Positions 2,134 to 21,516 of a stretch of 21,593 nt of DNA are shown in pieces (positions within the stretch are counted from its first letter, which is position 1; each line of letters begins with the position of its first letter). The notes under the pieces are model-generated. The model did no database searches and was not told where the DNA came from. It saw only the letters and a program-made list of their open reading frames with translations. Origin of the DNA: a virus; the IMG/VR virus record IMGVR_UViG_3300045125_000013, positions 1 to 21,593 of that record; one strand, written 5' to 3'. Both the position numbers and the translations under genes were made by a program.

Positions 2134-2140
2134 TAACTGT

Positions 2141-2175
2141 AGGCGGGGCTGGCAATACCTGCACCAGCCCCGCCT
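2141..2175 (+). other. Perfect 12-bp intercistronic hairpin
   Basis: AGGCGGGGCTGG (2141-2152) and CCAGCCCCGCCT (2164-2175) pair perfectly around an 11-nt loop. Only CTTAT follows, so termination would be weak. The AAAGGAGACTAA ribosome site begins 6 nt downstream. It could stabilise the upstream message, act as a partial terminator, or keep the next ribosome site open. Confidence 0.7.
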
Positions 2176-2193
2176 CTTATAAAGGAGACTAAT

Positions 2194-2812: not shown

Positions 2813-2905
2813 ATGAATGAAGCTATCTTTCCATACATCTCAACAGGTATCACCTGGCTTTACCTCATTGCAATTGGGTATTGCATATACAGATGGAGTT
2901 ACTAA
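2813..2905 (+). CDS. Tiny single-pass membrane protein (30 aa)
   Basis: GGAAGG precedes ATG 2813. The intact frame MNEAIFPYISTG...WLYLIAIGYCIYRWSY is almost one transmembrane helix with a short basic/aromatic end. Its TAA (2903-2905) abuts the ATG of the transglycosylase-like gene at 2906. The pairing with a cell-wall enzyme makes a holin-like or localisation role conceivable, but that is inference from position only. Confidence 0.6.
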   Translation: MNEAIFPYISTGITWLYLIAIGYCIYRWSY

Positions 2906-3340
2906 ATGAAGACCAAGTTAGCAAAGCTATTCAGCTGGGCATTGACGCTGTCATACAGTCTTTATCCAAGTCAATCGTATGCAGTAGCAGTAGCAGACAG
3001 ATTGCAGGACAAGACCGAACCGACCAAACAGGAACGCAAGGAGATTCGCTGGACGAAATCCTTGAGCAAATCCTATGCGAAGGCGCTCATCTCAGCACAG
3101 TATGAGACTTGGGGTGCATCAGAATTCCGTGCCTTAAAGAAACTTTGGGGCAAGGAATCTGCTTGGGACCACACTGCAGATAATCCAAAGTCATCTGCAT
3201 TTGGTATCCCACAGATGTTAGGTCTAGCACCTGACACACCGCCCGCGGAGCAGATTGCCCGCGGTCTGGTGTATATAGAACACCGATACGGCAAGCCATC
3301 AGTAGCTTGGGCACACTGGCGCAAGCACGGCTGGTACTAA
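2906..3340 (+). CDS. Secreted transglycosylase-like cell-wall hydrolase
   Basis: 144 aa, intact. Residues about 1-28 form a signal peptide (basic start, hydrophobic core, PSQSYAVAVA). The mature part resembles the C-terminal lysozyme/transglycosylase-like domain seen in actinobacterial and actinophage wall proteins: LWGKESAWD with the likely catalytic Glu, SSAFGIPQML, GLVYIEHRYG, and a terminal AWAHWRKHGWY. GGAG precedes ATG 2906. It would cleave peptidoglycan glycan strands, either outside the membrane during lysis or to remodel the wall during entry or infection. It is coupled to the small membrane protein at 2813 and lies far from the lysis cassette on the other strand. Confidence 0.75.
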   Translation: MKTKLAKLFSWALTLSYSLYPSQSYAVAVADRLQDKTEPTKQERKEIRWTKSLSKSYAKALISAQYETWGASEFRALKKLWGKESAWDHTADNPKSSAFGIPQMLGLAPDTPPAEQIARGLVYIEHRYGKPSVAWAHWRKHGWY

Positions 3341-3362
3341 TTAACTACAAAGGAGACTAACA

Positions 3363-3887
3363 ATGACAACAGTAGGACAACTAAGAGGACAGGTAGACCA
3401 AGAGCTATCTACCATTGGCAACTATGACTGGCGTAATACTGACAACAATGTCAGATTAGCAAATGAAGTTCGTCAGTATGTAGATGGTATGCAGTCAGAT
3501 GAACCAACCATCCCAACAGCTAAGCACATTGCAGAAGTAGCCGTAGCTTGTAGAGACTACTTCAACTTCCGTGATTTCCTTATGGGATTGCGTGTAGAAA
3601 AAGCATCACCTAATGTAGCTACATATCTAACATTAGTTAAAGAAACACTAGCCCCTGAGTATGCAGTGCCTTTCATTGCAGTGCTATCTACATATCTATT
3701 TGAGTTTGAGGAGGTAGAAGAAGCTAAAGCTCAGATTCAAACAGTGCTAGACATTGACCCACAGTATTCACTAGCTCACTTACTTGAGCGAGTATATGTT
3801 TCTTGGCCACCATTTATGATGGTTCAAATGGCAGAAGATTTACATAGCTCTGTTGTAGCAAAGCTATCTGAAAAGGAGACAGAATGA
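3363..3887 (+). CDS. DUF4192-like protein
   Basis: 174 aa, intact, with a perfect AAAGGAGACTAA (3349-3360) before ATG 3363. The central and C-terminal part (EVAVACRDYFNFRDFLMG; YAVPFIAVLSTYLFEF, AKAQIQTVLDIDPQYSLAHLL) matches the shape of the DUF4192 family of Actinobacteria: R-D helix, then paired helices with an A-x2-DP-Y-LA-LL motif, as in TPR-like repeats. The family's role is unknown. The family N-terminal half looks shortened. The stop overlaps the ATG of the DUF932-like gene (3884), indicating coupling. Confidence 0.6.
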   Translation: MTTVGQLRGQVDQELSTIGNYDWRNTDNNVRLANEVRQYVDGMQSDEPTIPTAKHIAEVAVACRDYFNFRDFLMGLRVEKASPNVATYLTLVKETLAPEYAVPFIAVLSTYLFEFEEVEEAKAQIQTVLDIDPQYSLAHLLERVYVSWPPFMMVQMAEDLHSSVVAKLSEKETE

Positions 3888-4893
3888 CAGACACATTAAC
3901 GGTACCAGCTAAGAATGTATCTAACTGGTACAAGTCAGGCACAAGCAGTAACAGCTACCTCAGCCAGTGATGTAGCCAGACAAGCAGGTCTTGACTGGTC
4001 AGTATCAATGCACGAAGTGACAGCTACCTATCCAATTCCAGGCGCAGGGACAGCCAATACACATACCAGTACCAGAACAAGCTATGCAGTTGTTAAGACA
4101 ACACGCTAATTCGGTACAGTCATACCACTTGGTGTGGTTGGTAAGACGCTATCAAGCCGTTCCAAAACGGTGAGAGTATTCTCAGTGCTGGATACCCTGA
4201 TTGATTCAGGTGAGGCTAGATTATGCAGCAGCTGGCGAGTATGATGGCGGCGCAAAGGTATGGATGCTGTTGCAGCTACCTAATTGAAATGAATGTTAGC
4301 CAAGTGACCCACACGCAGCATTTTATTTTGGCTAAGACCAGCCACGATGGCAGCAGTTCAGTCATTATCAAGCCAATCATTGAGCGTCTGTTCTGCTCAC
4401 AATCAGATTAACAAAATCTATCGGGGCAAAATCAAGTTCACATACACACTCAAGCACACTAGTGGTAGCAAGCTGGATGTATCAGAGATACGCCACATTA
4501 TGGGGCTAACCTATGACAACATTCAGGCTTACTCTGAGTCTAGCTAACCACCTGCTAGACAAAGAGATAGCACGTGAACACGCACTTAATTACTTTAAGA
4601 AGGTGTTCCCTACTACCATCACACATTGAGGAATCACCTCATCATCTGCTCAGTATGGGTGAGAAAGCACAGCTAACCCGTGCAGTCACAGCACTGCAAT
4701 ACTGCGCGGGCTATCTATGAGAGTAGCCCGACGCAGGAAAATATCAGAGGCACAGCCTTTGGTTTGTGGCAATCTGTTGTTGAGTATGCCGACCACGGCA
4801 GACAAAACAAAGGCGCAACCACAGGCATACAGGCTTTATCTAGGTACATCGGATGCTCTAAAGTTACGTGCATTAGAACTACTAACAGCATAA
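3884..4893 (+). CDS. DUF932-like phage/plasmid protein (multiply frameshifted)
   Basis: AAAAGGAGACAGA precedes ATG 3884 (MTDTLTVPAKNVSN). Collinear fragments in different frames read SASDVARQAGLDWSV, then LGVVGKT, SVLDTLIDSGEA, a GGAKVWMLLQLP-like passage, FILAKTSHDGSSSVII, IIERLFC, INKIYRGKIKFTYTLKHT, AFGLWQSVVEYADHGR and finally LKLRALELLTA ending at TAA 4891-4893. Order and motifs (A-GLDW, VVGK-Y, V-ML--LP, -SHDGS, R--C-N) fit DUF932 (TIGR03299), roughly 335 aa. Members are common in phages and plasmids with no assigned biochemical role. At least six indels are needed to join it. Confidence 0.6.
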
Positions 4894-4903
4894 GGAGACT
4901 ACA

Positions 4904-5320
4904 GTGGAATACTTACACACAAATTCAGATGGTAGTACTACCAAGTACACCGAAGAAATGATTAAGAATGTAATTATAGACCGTGATTACTACAGGAACC
5001 AAAGCAATAGTTACTTCACTAAGTATGTTAGCAATCGTGGCACAGTCTATGAGTTCTTCAAAGACCGCTTTGATTCTTCAGATGACACCATCACAGTCAC
5101 AGTTGATGATGTCAATGAGTTATTAGAATCTATCGGTGCAGATAAACTAGTAGCATTGTTCACAGTCACAGGCACTATTACCTTTACTATTACAGATGTT
5201 GAGGCTGAGTCAGAAGAAGAAGCCCGTGAGCTAGTAGAGGGTGAGCTATCAGTTGACTTTAATGGCAACGGTTTTCTAGATGATTGGGATGTGGAAGTCA
5301 GCGACACGTCCCAGCAGTAG
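4904..5320 (+). CDS. Highly acidic protein of unknown function (138 aa)
   Basis: AAGGAGACTACA precedes GTG 4904 and the frame is intact to TAG 5318-5320. By my count there are about 31 Asp/Glu against about 10 Lys/Arg, with the C-terminal half especially acidic (VEAESEEEARELVEGEL, DDWDVEVSD). A strand-rich segment (VTGTITFTITDVEA) precedes a short helix. No family is firmly recognised. The charge makes a nucleic-acid-mimic or chaperone-like role conceivable, but nothing in the sequence shows it. It ends the DUF4192-like/DUF932-like block. Confidence 0.75.
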   Translation: MEYLHTNSDGSTTKYTEEMIKNVIIDRDYYRNQSNSYFTKYVSNRGTVYEFFKDRFDSSDDTITVTVDDVNELLESIGADKLVALFTVTGTITFTITDVEAESEEEARELVEGELSVDFNGNGFLDDWDVEVSDTSQQ

Positions 5321-5374
5321 TGCTGCAATCCGTTACTACCATCTGCCTTTCGTGGTAGTCTTGCGGCACAGAGT

Positions 5375-5428
5375 GCGGCCTGGTTTTGATTAGTCTCCTT
5401 TCTAGGCCGCCTCTTTCACAAGGAGACT
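5375..5428 (+). promoter_or_regulatory. Leader hairpin with anti-Shine-Dalgarno loop (possible pseudoknot)
   Basis: In the 118-nt gap before the exonuclease gene, GCGGCCTGG (5375-5383) pairs with CTAGGCCGC (5402-5410), giving nine pairs including one G-U. The loop holds TTAGTCTCCTTT (5390-5401). Its segment AGTCTCCTT (5392-5400) is perfectly complementary to AAGGAGACT (5420-5428), the ribosome site of the gene at 5439. The two helices form an H-type pseudoknot with connecting loops of 8, 1 and 9 nt. The rest of 5321-5374 shows no clear feature. Confidence 0.55.
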
Positions 5429-5438
5429 TAGGGACACA

Positions 5439-6226
5439 ATGACACAAGCAGAAATACAGCGGGACAGATATGGCCGTCCGCTAGTTACATCACCTAAAGG
5501 TGGCAAAGCCAATTGCATATACAAGGGCTACGACTATAGCCAATAGTCTTGATGACCCGTCTGCGCTGACAGCGTGGAAGATGCGTATGGCAGCGATTGG
5601 TTTAACTATTCGCAGCGACCTACTGCTAGCTATTAACGCATCACAAGATGACAAGATGGCGATTAACAAGTACATAGAAGATGCTATGGAAGTTGCAGGT
5701 GCTAAGCCGTGCAGCTACTATCGGCACAGCTATTCACAGAATTACTGAGCAGTTAGATTTGGGACAAGAGCTTGGCCTTATCCCACAAGAATGGGAAGCG
5801 GACATCCGCGCCTATGAACAAGCTACAAAAAAACTTAATAACATACACATAGAACAGTTCACGGTTCTTGACAAGTTCAAGATAGCTGGGACACCAGACA
5901 GAGTTGTTGAGTACAACGGTGAACGGTTCATTGCTGACATCAAAACTGGACGGATTGACCACCCTAACAACATCGCTATGCAGTTAGCTATCTATGCCAA
6001 CGGGTTGCCATACGACGTTGCTACGGCAACCCGTGGCAGTTGGGGCGATATCAATAAAGATAAAGCCATCATCATCCATCTTCCTGCAGGTACTGGTCTA
6101 TGCAAACTAGTATGGATTGATATTAAAGAAGGATGGAAAGGTGTACAATTCGCAATGAAAGTCCGAGAGTGGCGAGACAAAAAGGTCTTAGCTACTCCAT
6201 TTACAGAAGGAGATATCAGTGGCTAG
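5439..6226 (+). CDS. PD-(D/E)XK (RecB/Cas4-like) exonuclease (frameshifted)
   Basis: AAGGAGACT lies 10 nt before ATG 5439. Frames join as MTQAEIQRDRYGRPLVTSPK, PIAYTRATTIANSLDD, MRMAAIGLTIRSDLL, then AATIGTAIHRITEQLD, FKIAGTPDRVVEYNGE, FIADIKTG and AMQLAIYANG, ending at TAG 6224-6226; about 260 aa. The nuclease core is visible: the GTAIH helix with its His, GTPDR (catalytic Asp), ADIKTG (D/E-x-K), and the Q-xxx-Y helix. Actinophages carry this exonuclease in replication/recombination modules, where it would resect DNA for recombination. Two indels are needed, near 5505 and 5705. The next gene starts at GTG 6219, overlapping by 8 nt. Confidence 0.85.
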
Positions 6227-6686: not shown

Positions 6687-6802
6687 TGTGGCTCTGCAAA
6701 TTATTTGGGCATACTTATTGGAGCTCGCTTGTCAACAAAACAATCTATTGCACACGGTGCGGTCAGGTGGTAACAGTTGAGAACTCTAAGAAGAAGCATT
6801 AA
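6686..6802 (+). CDS. DUF1660-like zinc-knuckle microprotein (38 aa)
   Basis: ATG 6686 overlaps the previous stop (TAATG) and the frame is intact to TAA 6800-6802. MWLCKLFGHTYWSS...IYCTRCGQVVTVENSKKKH shows the C-x3-GH-x-W ... CxRCG pattern of small phage proteins such as DUF1660. Two Cys plus His and CxxC could bind one zinc. Function is unknown. The frame overlaps the alternative start (TTG 6777) of the helicase gene. Confidence 0.6.
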   Translation: MWLCKLFGHTYWSSLVNKTIYCTRCGQVVTVENSKKKH

Positions 6803-7597
6803 CAAAGCAGAGGTGGGGGGCGAACCATTGCCCCCCGCTTTTGCGGCATTTGAACGAGCAGGAATTATCCTGCGACGTGCAGAAATTACTATGGTAGCTG
6901 GCACTCCAGGTGCAGGTAAGTCATCAGTTGCACTGGCTATTGCAGCCAGAGCAAAGGTTCCTACGTTGTACTTCAGTGCAGATACCAATGCTCACACTAT
7001 GGCTATGCGTTTGCTAGCTATGTCTAGTCGTATCACACAGACAGCAGCAGAGCAGATGTTAAAGCGTGAGCCACAGCAAGCAGAAGAAATACTTACACTT
7101 AACAATCATTTGTTCTGGTCCTTTGAATCAACTCCTACTCTTAAAGATTTAGATGATGAGGTCAGTGCATTTGAAACTGTATGGGGCAGAAGCCCAACAT
7201 TGATTGTCGTAGACAATCTAATGGATATTGCTATGGATGGTCACGAAGAATTCCAAGGTATGCGTTCTGCTATGAAGGAACTAAAGTACCTAGCCCGTGA
7301 TACTAACTGCAGCAGTTCTTGGTATTGCACCACACCAAAGAAGGCTCAGAGGGTTATCCCTGCCAGCCACGCAGTGCAATCCAGGGTCTAGTCAATCAGA
7401 TACCAGCAATGGTTCTAACTATCGGCCAGATGAAGCAGGGTGATGATACCTATCTATGTGTAGCCCCAGTCAAAAACAGATACGGGCGAGCAGACCAGAC
7501 AGGTAACAACTATGTCAGCCTAGCTTTCAACCCAGACAGTATGTATCTAGATGATGTTCAAATCAAATACGCACAGGAGACTATGTATGGAAATTAA
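6777..7597 (+). CDS. DnaB-like replicative helicase, RecA-type ATPase domain (frameshifted)
   Basis: About 270 aa, essentially only the C-terminal ATPase domain of DnaB-type helicases. Walker A is GTPGAGKS (residues 42-49 from TTG 6777), followed by a YFSADTNAHTMAMRLLAM segment, Walker B TLIVVDNLMDI, and after an indel near 7305 VLHHTKEGSEG, KNRYG and a terminal FNPDSMYLDD. It would unwind phage DNA at the fork with the primase at 8465. Start is uncertain: TTG 6777 has GGTGG upstream; GTG 6813 lacks a good site. The intact frame stops at 7391; the continuation ends at TAA 7595-7597, overlapping the next gene. Confidence 0.85.
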
Positions 7598-7763
7598 AAT
7601 ATGGGAAGTAAGCTATAGCAGAGAAGATTTAGAGTCTGAGTTTGGTAAGCCTATATCAGATGGTGAGTGGAACATTATTGTTGATGAGTTATATAACAAC
7701 GATACTTTGTATGAACTAATCCATAAGAATGTAAAGAAGATTGTTAGTGGCATACTAGAATGA
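7587..7763 (+). CDS. Small protein of unknown function (58 aa)
   Basis: AGGAGACT immediately precedes ATG 7587 and the frame is intact. MEIKIWEVSYSREDLESEFG...GEWNIIVDELYNND is acidic and mixed helix/strand. Similar small acidic proteins are common next to phage helicases, but I assign no family. It overlaps the helicase end by 11 nt and its own stop overlaps ATG 7760. Confidence 0.65.
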   Translation: MEIKIWEVSYSREDLESEFGKPISDGEWNIIVDELYNNDTLYELIHKNVKKIVSGILE

Positions 7764-8137: not shown

Positions 8138-8478
8138 GTAACTATGCCCAACGTAAAGGTAGCGGAGCTGAGCGAGATGTAGTGGTTTGGCTTAGAGACA
8201 ATGGCTATCAGTATGCAGACCGCAGATTAGCTGGTGCAACCCTTGATAAAGGTGATGTCAGTGGTATCCCAGGAGTTACCATTGAGATTAAGAACCACGC
8301 TAAGATGGACCTTGCTGGTTGGGTAAGTGAACTTGAAGTAGAGATGAAGAATGACAATGCTTGGACAGGTGTAGTTATTCATAAACGCAAAGGTAAAGGA
8401 GACGTAGGGCAGTGGTATGCCAGTATGCCAGCAAGCGTATGGCTAGCACTCTTGAAGAAAGCAGATGGAAAAGCATAG
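8134..8478 (+). CDS. Holliday junction resolvase (PD-(D/E)XK fold)
   Basis: 114 aa, intact, GTG 8134 with GAGAAGGA upstream and overlapping the previous stop. The catalytic layout is clear: GSGAERDVVVWLRDNG (Glu), ADRRLAGATLDKGDVSGIPG (Asp) and VTIEIKNHA (E-x-K), followed by GVVIHKRKGKG and a WY strand. This matches the Hjc-like resolvase found in many actinophages, which cuts four-way junctions during recombination or before packaging. It completes the recombination set with the exonuclease at 5439. The next gene begins at ATG 8465 within its end. Confidence 0.85.
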   Translation: MSNYAQRKGSGAERDVVVWLRDNGYQYADRRLAGATLDKGDVSGIPGVTIEIKNHAKMDLAGWVSELEVEMKNDNAWTGVVIHKRKGKGDVGQWYASMPASVWLALLKKADGKA

Positions 8479-9300
8479 TATTGCCGCATACCTAGAGTAT
8501 GTAGGCGCAGCCGTGCCTGCTACGGGGACAGCGGCTGGCGCAAGATTAAAGTGCCCATTCCACCCAGATAAGACATGCCTCCGCTGGTGTTAACTTTGAT
8601 GAGAACAGATTCAAATGCCACGGCTGTGGTGTTGGTGGAGATGTATACGACTTAATTATGCAAAGAGAAGGAGGTAACTATCGTGAGGCTGTCAAATTCG
8701 CAGAGACAATTTCTCCTACAGGCAGCGACAGAATACGCCCAGCACATTCATCTAGCAGCAGACTATCTAGCAACACGGGGTCTGTCGGTAGACGAAGCAA
8801 GGATGTTTCATTTAGGAGTAGTGGCGAATCCATTGCCAGGGCACGAAGGCTACGTGGGTAAGTTAGTTATCCCATATACCACTCCATCAGGTGTGGTAGA
8901 CCTACGCTTTCGTAGCATCCATGGTGAAGACCCTAAGTACATAGGCTTGCCAGGAGCAAAGACAACTATGTTCAACGCTCAGGCAGTACTAACAGCAGAT
9001 GGTTATATCTGTGTCACCGAAGGTGAGATTGACTGTATTACTACAGTAGTCAAAGACAGGACACCCTGCAGTAGGAATGCCAGGTGCTAACAACTGGAAG
9101 CCTTACTACAGCAAAATACTTGACGACTTTGATACAGTTATAGTGCTAGCAGATGGCGATAACCCAGGGCTAGAGTTTGGCAAGAAGGTTAGCCGTGAGT
9201 TAGGCAATGTAAATATTATACAAATGCCAGATGGGCACGATGTAAACAGCATCGTCCTACAAGAAGGGGCAGGTTGGCTAGATGACACGAATCAGAAAAT
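8465..9300 (+). CDS. DnaG-type primase, CHC2 zinc finger and TOPRIM domain (frameshifted)
   Basis: ATG 8465 gives MEKHSIAAYLEYVGAAVPA, then KCPFHPDKT, and after an indel near 8575 AGVNFDENRFKCHGCGVGGD: the CHC2 zinc finger (C-x2-H ... C-x2-C). A second indel near 8690-8700 leads to AADYLATRGLSVDEARMFHLG and LVIPYTTPSGVVDLRFR. The TOPRIM part follows with CVTEGEIDC (metal-binding Glu), an indel near 9065, GMPGANNWKPYY and VLADGDNPG (Asp pair), ending around HDVNSIVLQEGAGW. It would lay RNA primers for the helicase at 6777. The frame reads on to 9421; I place the boundary near 9300, where ATG 9299 starts a distinct domain. Confidence 0.8.
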
Positions 9301-9596
9301 GCTATCTCAGCATAACGATAAGTTTTGGGATTATGTAAAAGACAATCCATTGACTATTGGAATACCAGTATCAGATAACAAAGGTTTAGATTTATTAAGC
9401 AGCACTACGAGATGTCTATGAGAAGCCTACGAAAATAGCTACAGAAGTTAGAGATACTATGTTAACCCTGCTAGGTACATTACTTGCTGGTGTAGCCAAT
9501 GGAGATGGCGACGAAGATGATAGAAGAAGTATTAGTTCAAGAAGCTATGATTGATATAGACAAAGAAATAAAGGAGTTCTTGATGAAGGACACTAG
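9299..9596 (+). CDS. Unknown protein between primase and Nmad1 gene (frameshifted)
   Basis: From ATG 9299: MLSQHNDKFWDYVKDNPLTIG, then after an indel near 9400 YEKPTKIATEVRDTMLTLLGTLLAG, then VLVQEAMIDIDKEIKE, and a last frame LDEGH ending at TAG 9594-9596. The joined product (about 98 aa) is largely helical with an acidic middle. It could instead be a C-terminal extension of the primase, because the primase frame runs into it without a stop until 9421. The end overlaps the next start (ATG 9583). Confidence 0.35.
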
Positions 9597-9888: not shown

Positions 9889-10523
9889 ATACGAGGCTTT
9901 AGTAGCCTCGCTTGCTAACGGAATACCATAGACGGTATCCGATGGTGGAATCAGCCAGACATACAGCAGATGTTGTGGCTCTGGTTTGTCACCCACCCTG
10001 GTAAGTATCAGGAGTGGTCAGCCCTTGAGCCAGAAGGACAAAGACAAGTTAATAGCCAAGTCACTACGCAATGCAGCCATCAAGTTCTGTGAACGTGAGA
10101 AAGCCAAGACAGTAGGCTACGAGATCCTAGACCTGTATTACTATGACGCTACAGTTATTGAAGCATTCCTACCCAGCATTATCTCTGAGTCATATGAAAT
10201 ACCAACTAAGATTAAAGACTTAAACTTTAAGTTCAGCAAGTCAGAACCAAGCAATGACGGCAACAACTGGCTAGTACTACGGTCAGATATAGCCAATGCT
10301 TTCTACAAACTAACAGAAGCTAAACAATATGTACTAAAGGTCAGGTTCAGCACAGACTCTAACGACTGGTCATTCATATCTAAAGACTTAAGCACTACCC
10401 CAGATGGTGCACGTATGAAAGTACAGCGAGCTATCAACTCACTAATCAGAAACCTTGGTGGCTTCAAGCCATTATACAGATGAAGATACAGCAGCAATGG
10501 CGGATGATGATGACTCAGAGTAG
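9866..10523 (+). CDS. Sigma-factor-like HTH protein (frameshifted)
   Basis: GGGAAGG precedes ATG 9866 (MNQGYLSEYEALVASLAN). After an indel near 9920 comes DIQQMLWLWFVTHPGKYQEW, then KDKLIAKSLRNAAIKFCERE and DLYYYDATVIEAFLPSI. Later LTEAKQYVLKVRF, STTPDGARMKVQRAINSLI resembles a sigma region-4 helix-turn-helix, and the earlier part could be a divergent region 2. A last indel near 10465 would give an acidic tail (TDEDTAAMADDDDSE) ending at TAG 10521-10523. About 215 aa. Probably redirects host RNA polymerase or binds DNA; this is inferred from layout, not from strong motifs. Confidence 0.5.
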
Positions 10524-19619: not shown

Positions 19620-21516
19620 TTACATTCCACCGAGCATAAAGACGGTTGGTGTTGGGTCTGTTGTTATTGTAGCCCACGAAGCGGTACTTCCGTCCGTAGT
19701 CAAATACTTTCCTGAATTTCCTGTTTGGCAGGTAGTGCGTCAACTGTTGACCAAACAAGACCAGATGCTTGAGTTGAATCAGCCTTAAGATATTGACCAT
19801 TAGTGCCAACAGCAACGCGTGTTACCGCTGATGCACCAGTAGCAGCAATCAAATCACCCTTAGTAGTGACTGTTGATTTAGGAACAGCAGCATTAGCAGT
19901 TAGTTGTTAGCGGTATTAGCCAAGTCATATGCTGACTTAACAGAGTTAGGTGTAGCAGCAGTTGTAACGCTAGTAGATGCTGCTATCAGTAAGTTGAACT
20001 GCACCAGATTGTGCGGTAGTTGCTGCTTGGATTGAGATAGTTACATCTCCACCTGTACCCCCACCCGTAATCGGGAAGTTACATTAACCGCCGTAATGTC
20101 TCCAGTCTGTGGGGCAATCCAAGAAAGACCAGTAGCGGTAGCAGAGTTAACACTTAAGACATAACCATTAGTTGCAGCAACTGTCAGTTGGTCAAATGCT
20201 TGTGCACCAGTTCCAACTAGTCAAATCTCCTTTAGCATCAAAGGATGCAGCCACGGCTGCAGCAGCACTGGCTGCGCTGTTGCAGCAGATGCCGCCGAAG
20301 TCGCAGCGCTAGCAGCAGATGTAGCAGCACTTGATGCTGAAGTAGCGGCAGCACTGGCTGATGTGGCAGAGGCTGTTGCAGAAGTTGCAGAAGCGTGTAG
20401 CAGATGTAGCCGAAGCAGTCGCTGAGGTAGCAGATGCAGTTGCCGAAGTAGCCGATGAGGTAGCCGATGTTGCAGCAGATGAGGCTGAGGTAGCAGCCGA
20501 AGTAGCCAGATGTTGCTGCTGCAGAAGCCGAGGTAGCCGAGGCTGTGGCACTTGCTGCTGCACTAGTAGCACTGGTTGCCGCTGCTGTCGCAGAAGCCGC
20601 TGCAGAGGTTGCAGAGGTGGCTGCTGCTGTGGCTGAGGTACGATGCACTGTTGGCGCTAGTTAGGGCGTTAGAAGCGCTTGTAGCCGCGCTAGAGGCACT
20701 TGTAGCGGCTGCCGTAGCACTTGCTGCAGCCGATGCTGCTGAGGTGCTGGCTGCCGTAGCAGAGCCTAGGATTGAATCTACATAATCTTTAGGGGTAGCA
20801 GAGGTGATACCATACCTGCTGAAGACAAGACCAGTTATCACTGGTGAACCTGATATTACAGGGCTCGTCAAGGTTTTATTAGTCAGGGTCTGAGTTGCTG
20901 TAGCAATGACTACTGTACCTGTTGTGTTAGGTAGAGTGATTGTGTTGTCCTGTGTTGGGTCAACTACAGTCAGAGTAGTTTCATAATGCATCAGCAGTTG
21001 TACCTTCAAAGACAATGCTTGCATCAACTGAAGATGTGCCAGTGAATGGTTGGGTTAGAAATTGTTGGGCTAGTAAGAGTCTTGTTGGTGAGAGTCTGTG
21101 TTTTATCAGTACCTACTACAACACCTTCACCAGCTGCAATGCCGTGCATTGTGTGAGCATTACCGCCACCATCATTGTAAGAAGCATCAGCCTCTGCGTG
21201 TAGATTAGCATCACGGTAGTCACGGCCAATAGCCATATGGCGTACGACTGCGCCAGCTGAGTGGTCTTGTGCCGAACTGAACCATCACGACCACGGGTGA
21301 TTGTAAATGTATTAGTAGATACCGCTGTGGCATCTACAATTTCTTCAAGCGCAGTATCAACATCAATTACTAGCGTAAAGGTTCTGCCTGCTGGGATGGT
21401 TACACCACCAAGTAAGCGCAGTACCAGATACTACTGTCATAGACGCTGGCACCTGATGTAATAGCGCCAGTTAAAGTTGTTTGCTGGCTGCGTGAGGAGT
21501 ATTGCCGTGTTGTCAT
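19620..21516 (-). CDS. Long tail fibre with Ala/Ser/Thr repeat shaft (multiply frameshifted)
   Basis: TAGGA precedes ATG at 21516. MTTRQYSSRSQQTTLTGAIT, GGVTIPAGRTFTLVIDVDTA, EEIVDATAVSTNTFTITRGR, MAIGRDYRDANLHAEA and HTMHGIAAGEGVVVGTDK form the N-terminal, particle-side domain. TQTLTNKTLTSP occurs twice. Then comes a shaft of Ala/Ser/Thr repeats (about 20240-20760), followed by GTGAQAFDQLTVAATNGYVL, WIAPQTGDITAVNV, GDVTISIQAATTAQSGAVQL, STVTTKGDLIAATGASA and QTGNSGKYLTTDGS, ending in FMLGGM at TAA 19620-19622. About 630 aa. It is the main fibre, and its layout is typical of long side-tail fibres. Confidence 0.7.
20240..20765 (-). repeat. Low-complexity Ala/Ser/Thr repeat inside the long tail fibre
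   Basis: On the minus strand the sequence encodes tandem units such as SAASAAASATAAATSA and ATSATASATSATASAT, with an underlying DNA period that often looks like 21 nt. Repeats of this kind form the shaft of lambda-like side-tail fibres. Long complementary frames on the + strand (VAEVADAVAEVADEV) are a by-product. Several indels break the frame here, as expected where an assembler or basecaller meets repeats. Confidence 0.7.

Follow-up and report, generated by a model that had tools for sequence, protein, structure and literature searches.

Directly in front of a PD-(D/E)XK exonuclease gene, the phage DNA analysed here carries a hairpin whose loop is the exact complement of the consensus of the early-gene ribosome-binding sites (RBSs), and both the loop and a tag within these RBSs are conserved in one clade of related phages. 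The reading that we prefer, with a confidence that stops just short of even, is that of a conserved anti-RBS leader with a dual action, which would sequester the RBS of its own gene and also pair with a regulon of tagged early genes. Judged from sequence, the hairpin loop and the tag suggest that RNA serves as a switch by which the expression of virus genes would be lowered. Positions refer to the window, i.e., the whole stretch of 21,593 nucleotides that was analysed (IMG/VR record IMGVR_UViG_3300045125_000013), and features are on its + strand unless stated otherwise.

The exonuclease leader and its loop

The hairpin, designated P2 (5371-5413), is located between a gene of unknown function (4904-5320) and the exonuclease gene (ATG at 5439). 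Its predicted stem of 12 bp runs from G5371-C5413 to G5383-C5402, with T5374 bulged, and closes an 18-nt loop (5384-5401) that contains the anti-RBS sequence TTAGTCTCCTTT at 5390-5401. A second hairpin, P1 (5320-5369), was placed upstream of it by folding and alignment; its sequence varies among relatives, and in most of them a hairpin can be drawn at this place. The 136-nt leader folds with -47.4 kcal/mol, and comparison with shuffled sequences gave z = -3.06 on the + strand versus -1.65 on the other strand. The original prediction had placed TTAGTCTCCTTT in a hairpin loop, which was confirmed by this strong fold (z = -3.1 on the + strand). A covariance model of the element (R1) matches the window at 5365-5427 with an E value of 1.9e-19.

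The sequence also bears out the prediction that TTAGTCTCCTTT is the exact reverse complement of the RBS motif of the genes at 1326, 2194 and 3363. The complement AAAGGAGACTAA occurs in full (12/12) at 1312-1323, 2181-2192 and 3349-3360, just 5' of these ATGs, the last of which belongs to a DUF4192 gene. Near matches to AAAGGAGACTAA are found 5' of further genes, starting at 1815 (AAAGGAGACCAA, 1815-1826, 11/12), 2679 (ATAGGAGACTGA, 2679-2690, 10/12), 3872 (AAAGGAGACAGA, 3872-3883, 10/12, before a DUF932 gene whose frame is broken in this contig), 4891 (TAAGGAGACTAC, 4891-4902, 10/12, serving the gene 4904-5320 that adjoins the leader) and 5419. Matches with up to 3 mismatches show a modest excess only (30 versus 20.8 in shuffles). 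By chance, a given 12-mer would turn up without mismatch some 0.003 times in 43 kb (both strands), and therefore the three exact copies and the antisense copy are not a matter of chance and represent one shared RBS motif.

The copy nearest to the loop, AAGGAGACT at 5420-5428, is the RBS of the exonuclease gene directly behind the hairpin, and because of this the loop is able to pair in cis, a pairing that was absent from the original prediction. Loop positions 5392-5400 could form 9 bp with this RBS, which lies 20 nt 3' of the loop, and the stem and this pairing together would make an H-type pseudoknot. The exonuclease gene itself (5439-6226; Pfam PF12705, PHROG 466) is one of several genes split by frameshifts in this contig, along with those for DUF932 (3363-4900), a helicase (6777-7597) and a primase (8683-9421). 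Sequencing or assembly indels are the likely cause, because relatives have intact versions of both the exonuclease and the DUF932 protein (259-263 aa for the exonuclease; 8248-9237 in relative L351 for DUF932).

When the window and seven relatives were compared with Rfam 15, no match was found at the gathering threshold of any family; at E <= 10 there were only three chance-level, unrelated matches, and the best sub-threshold E values were 1.8-4.7. Literature searches did not find a description of the hairpin element. The exact loop pattern had 18 matches in bacterial and archaeal genomes, none of them with a comparable hairpin plus RBS by eye, and several coincide with the RBS-ATG of an opposite-strand gene and are thus chance matches. 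The loop also resembles what we take to be the 16S rRNA 3' end (GATTAGTCTCCTTTCTA versus GGATCACCTCCTTTCTA). Mimicry of that end was considered and set aside, as such a likeness is expected of any anti-Shine-Dalgarno (anti-SD) sequence.

Conservation of the hairpin and of its match to the exonuclease RBS

Relatives were gathered by searches with the exonuclease protein and with the exact loop, which yielded 114 distinct leaders. The exonuclease tree has two well separated groups, a hairpin group of 54 tips and a sister group of 45 tips with the outlying L094. The loop core GTCTCCTT is present in the hairpin loop of every hairpin-group leader (about 60 distinct) and in none of the sister group or L094, and within the hairpin group the loop is nearly invariant as TTGATTAGTCTCCTTT. 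One loop alignment was anchored on part of the loop, and the leader set obtained by protein searches shows the same invariance. The original prediction had proposed a search for the same loop in related phages, and had taken a loop that is not conserved when the RBS motif changes in relatives as a point against itself. The search found the loop conserved in all of the roughly 60 distinct leaders of one clade, and at the level of sequence the adverse pattern was not seen.

Around this loop the P2 stem varies. Changes on both sides were observed at 6 of the 9 tested pairs, and 97.5% of cells in the comparison were paired, a fraction that drops to 36-53% in controls in which the whole structure was slid. 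Changes on one side of the stem are mostly G-U on the + strand. Searches with the covariance model found a single strong copy in each of 27 hairpin-group records; outside the group, two sister-group records gave none and one unrelated record gave a weak partial match. These data bear on the idea that the hairpin has no function as RNA and is a GC-rich intergenic element involved in mRNA stability, a cruciform or a replication signal, with a loop that resembles the motif by descent or chance. The occurrence of similar GC-rich stems before other early RBSs, without the anti-RBS loop (window 2134-2189), would agree with such a view. However, it does not account for a loop that is invariant over a covarying stem, for one-sided stem changes that favor G-U on the + strand, or for an exact match to the regulon consensus, and we regard it as very improbable.

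The match of the loop to its own RBS is also widespread. Of 59 leaders, 56 have a longest contiguous match of 8-9 nt and three have one of 6-7 nt; in nearly every leader, the core GTCTCCTT is complementary to the own RBS AAGGAGAC. The pairs between the core and the own RBS never vary, and covariation is seen at the edges only, in few leaders. In L308-311, a loop C faces a G of the own RBS, and in L313 the loop is re-matched over about 12 bp (one G-U) to an altered own RBS, AAAGAGGAGACT; the loop change in L324-326 does not fit the own RBS. The 8-9 nt matches in 56 of 59 leaders, together with what is seen at the edges in L308-311 and L313, make it plausible that a pseudoknot covers the own RBS. 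At the sequence level the leader has what is expected of a cis operator, namely a conserved structure and a strand complementary to its own RBS, and it is plausible that it is an RBS-sequestering cis element over the exonuclease RBS.

It is possible, although we lean against it, that cis control is all there is. According to this main alternative, the hairpin controls the exonuclease alone, acting as a pseudoknot that sequesters the RBS until a ligand, a protein or ribosomes open it; the early tag has another cause, and the loop matches the tag since the exonuclease RBS wears it as well. Consistent with it, 56 of 59 leaders can pair with their own RBS over at least 8 nt, edge changes fit the own RBS (C/G in L308-311, about 12 bp in L313), and a pseudoknotted leader occupies the corresponding position in the sister clade as well. 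In most sister-group leaders (L079, L236, L238-L305 and similar; e.g., L285 at about 9890-10000), just 5' of the exonuclease ATG, a different H-type pseudoknot, GATGG-GTGGTCCCG-CCATC...CGGGAC, follows a hairpin and is located about 12 nt before the RBS. One compensatory change was observed in it (GCCCCG/CGGGGC in L250), and it had no Rfam match at E <= 10. Leader control of the exonuclease thus seems to be general, as the sister clade has such a leader too. The most divergent relative, L094 (about 2890-3052), has a structured leader of another kind, GCCTAGG...CCTAGGC with a TACTCCTTTT loop, followed by a long hairpin that ends just 5' of the RBS.

Second copies of the element were considered and rejected, the lesser matches being P2-like stems before other early RBSs that are devoid of the anti-RBS loop. 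In the window, a GC-rich hairpin of the GGGCTGG/CCAGCCC type (2143-2173, within the 2134-2189 region) precedes the tagged RBS at 2181-2192, and like hairpin-RBS modules are present at G013:C1:5480-5536, G014:C1:20509-20565 and G019:C1:16788-16844. The exonuclease hairpin may have descended from such a GC-rich module.

A tag on early ribosome-binding sites

The tag was counted at AGGAG sites before open frames, with gene starts taken from a simple script rather than an annotation pipeline, and genes were called early or late by position and strand. In hairpin phages, 265 of 349 genes that lie upstream of the exonuclease on its strand have GGAGAC at these sites (76%), compared with 53 of 251 downstream genes and 0 of 30 opposite-strand genes. 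In sister phages, which lack the hairpin, it was found at 1 of 137 upstream AGGAG sites. The clade difference gives a Fisher p of about 4e-60, which is not to be read literally because the sequences are related. The co-occurrence of hairpin and tag (265/349 versus 1/137) corresponds to a single split of the tree, and since the element arose or was lost once, the association is one event, though many genes follow it. The original prediction had described the motif as used throughout the phage; this is too broad, since the motif is confined to early genes of the hairpin's strand, most of which lie 5' of the hairpin.

Genes of more than 20 unrelated families bear the tag, and their sister-group orthologues are untagged. 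For example, orthologues of the gene adjoining the leader carry it in 59 of 61 hairpin phages versus 0 of 46 sister phages, and another early family in 32/33 versus 0/4. After de-duplication, 298 early RBSs gave the consensus AAAGGAGACTAA, in which the most frequent base at every one of the 12 positions is complementary to the loop.

Is the loop fitted to its own RBS or to the other early RBSs? With the 8-nt core fixed, the natural flanks TTA...T rank 1 of 256 for tagged early RBSs and 163 of 256 for own RBSs. When the flanks alone were scored, the ranks (of 256) were 1 for early RBSs, 86 for own RBSs and 56 for early genes of the sister group, and, in the same phages, 3 for opposite-strand (late) RBSs (n = 27) and 30 for downstream genes; part of the flank match must therefore be ascribed to an A/T-rich spacer, as late-RBS flanks fit almost as well. 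A loop match of at least 9 nt was found for 207 of 355 other early RBSs versus 7 of 59 own RBSs. The loop matches the tag better than it matches its own RBS. In one subclade (L314, L315 and L352), the own RBS is without the C of GGAGAC, which the loop and the other early RBSs retain, and in L312 and L313, whose loop is without GATTA, the tag has decayed (5/14 versus 265/341, p = 0.001, one lineage). As would be expected of the seed of a small RNA (sRNA), the conserved exposed loop fits several target RBSs better than chance (12/12 of the consensus, flanks 1/256). Taken as sequence evidence, the flank ranks, the match lengths and these two sets of leaders favor a role beyond cis control. Control of the exonuclease alone offers no reason why more than 20 gene families should wear a clade-specific tag. 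It also sits poorly with the flanks, which are invariant and, of 256 possibilities, suit the other early RBSs best, yet do not match most own RBSs.

Other observations speak against dual action. If it is part of a polycistronic mRNA, the loop would be at most equimolar with its targets. In addition, the early RBSs show no change to match the altered loop bases of L308-311 and L324-326, and the variants of L308-311 and L313 fit the own RBS. The original prediction had proposed that a discrete short transcript acts in trans as a decoy or brake on many messages. A separate transcript is not supported, as the + strand has no terminator-like site and its promoter-like site is at chance level only. 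The proposed target set fared better: the loop is conserved, it agrees with the consensus at 12/12 positions, the tag is missing from the sister clade and the fit to early RBSs is the better one. Against it stand the loop variants without early-RBS changes and the pairing of the loop in cis with the exonuclease RBS, and because of the latter a simple trans decoy is neither the sole nor the first-order reading.

The tag might also be read by a protein. A phage protein or nuclease, RegA- or RegB-like in effect, would recognize GGAGAC of early messages, and the hairpin would be a shield, its loop covering the exonuclease RBS so that the exonuclease message escapes. RegB of phage T4, which acts on GGAG in early messages, provides a precedent (PMC3014915), and the hairpin clade has clade-specific small proteins, several of them without annotation. 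Yet a RegB- or RegA-like domain was found in 0 of 10 early proteins tested, and the fit of the loop flanks to the tag rather than to the own RBS would have no explanation. We consider this possibility unlikely.

Two small tagged genes, 2194-2343 and 7586-7763, code for a CPxC zinc-ribbon-like protein and an unknown protein. Relatives of these proteins are present in 10 of 10 hairpin-clade genomes versus 0 of 9 sister-clade records, and both proteins are candidate partners of the tag. A search for GGAGAC-tagged phages outside the clade, in which the presence of an anti-loop could be checked independently, led to an apparently unrelated phage fragment of 4.5 kb (L433, IMGVR_UViG_3300005613_002516) that bears the tag and has AAAGGAGAC before most of its genes (4/7 AGGAG sites); neither an anti-RBS hairpin in it nor relatives of it were found.

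A candidate switch, related systems and the source phage

Under the preferred dual-action reading, the loop could close in cis on the exonuclease RBS 20 nt downstream, forming the H-type pseudoknot and hiding this RBS from the ribosome. The same loop would also pair with tagged early RBSs (AAAGGAGACTAA), either in trans or at other sites of its own polycistronic RNA, so that early translation would be blocked and the exonuclease RBS freed at the same time. The two pairings would be exclusive: that with the own RBS would switch the exonuclease off, and that with a tagged early RBS would switch the early gene off and leave the exonuclease RBS accessible. Accumulating tagged messages would compete for the loop, and the outcome would be a switch from early to replication and recombination genes. 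That one leader RNA silences the whole tagged regulon by base pairing, coupled in this way to the release of the exonuclease RBS, is a tentative proposal that we hold to be possible rather than probable. We infer that the pairings form in the cell and repress, as we do their direction and timing and any release signal.

SAM/SAH, SAM-II and preQ1 riboswitches are RBS-sequestering elements of the H-type pseudoknot kind, in which the leader pseudoknot can include the RBS. The phage leader differs from them in that its loop appears tuned to the RBSs of other genes, and it had no Rfam match beyond the three chance-level ones.

The Staphylococcus aureus sRNA RsaA is reported to repress mgrA through pairing with the SD and a loop-loop interaction, and it shares with the phage element a hairpin whose loop complements the SDs of more than one message (PMC3961350). 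The phage loop, however, belongs to the leader of an mRNA whose RBS it is also able to pair with, and its targets bear a 12-nt tag of one operon region. The leader pseudoknot of T4 gene 32 was presented in 2010 as possibly the sole viral example in translational autoregulation (PMC3014915). Both cases involve an H-type pseudoknot, putative in this phage, in the leader of a recombination or replication gene, with control of translation. The T4 pseudoknot nucleates gp32 binding upstream of the RBS, whereas here the RBS itself would be one strand of the possible pseudoknot helix. By analogy, the element would act like an anti-SD-loop sRNA of the RsaA type placed in a gene 32-like leader, and we have not filed it as an sRNA.

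The GGAG sites that T4 RegB cleaves lie in early intergenic regions; cleavage depends on an extended 3' context (GGAGRAYARAA) and is prevented by secondary structure (PMC3014915). With RegB and RegA the present system would have in common that a sequence signal in early RBSs serves to silence early messages (PMC3014915). T4 relies on a nuclease and a repressor protein for this, while here the RNA loop is the only visible reader. Translational early shut-off in phages is known mainly through the T4 proteins. An RNA that reads an early-RBS tag would, if the proposal is true, be a compact and protein-free means of retiring a whole gene set and an RNA counterpart of RegA/RegB, and it should then be possible to swap loop and tag together. 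Should the element act in cis only, it would still be a clade-wide RBS-sequestering leader, not listed in Rfam, of environmental phages that are uncultured, and GGAGAC, as a tag specific to the clade, would be a regulatory signal still in need of a reader.

No DNA similarity of the phage to named phages was found. Its protein relatives (<60% identity) are, with few exceptions, from phages of actinobacteria, and DUF4192 is an actinobacterial domain. The hosts are freshwater bacteria, and an actinobacterium is likely because of the nearest named exonuclease relatives and the DUF4192 gene. Phages of 'Ca. Nanopelagicales' have been isolated (PMC10202952). On the - strand, positions 20238-21027 comprise a long, low-complexity, repetitive coding stretch rich in Ala, Ser and Thr (…AATSATSAAASATA…), which is probably part of a tail or fibre protein.
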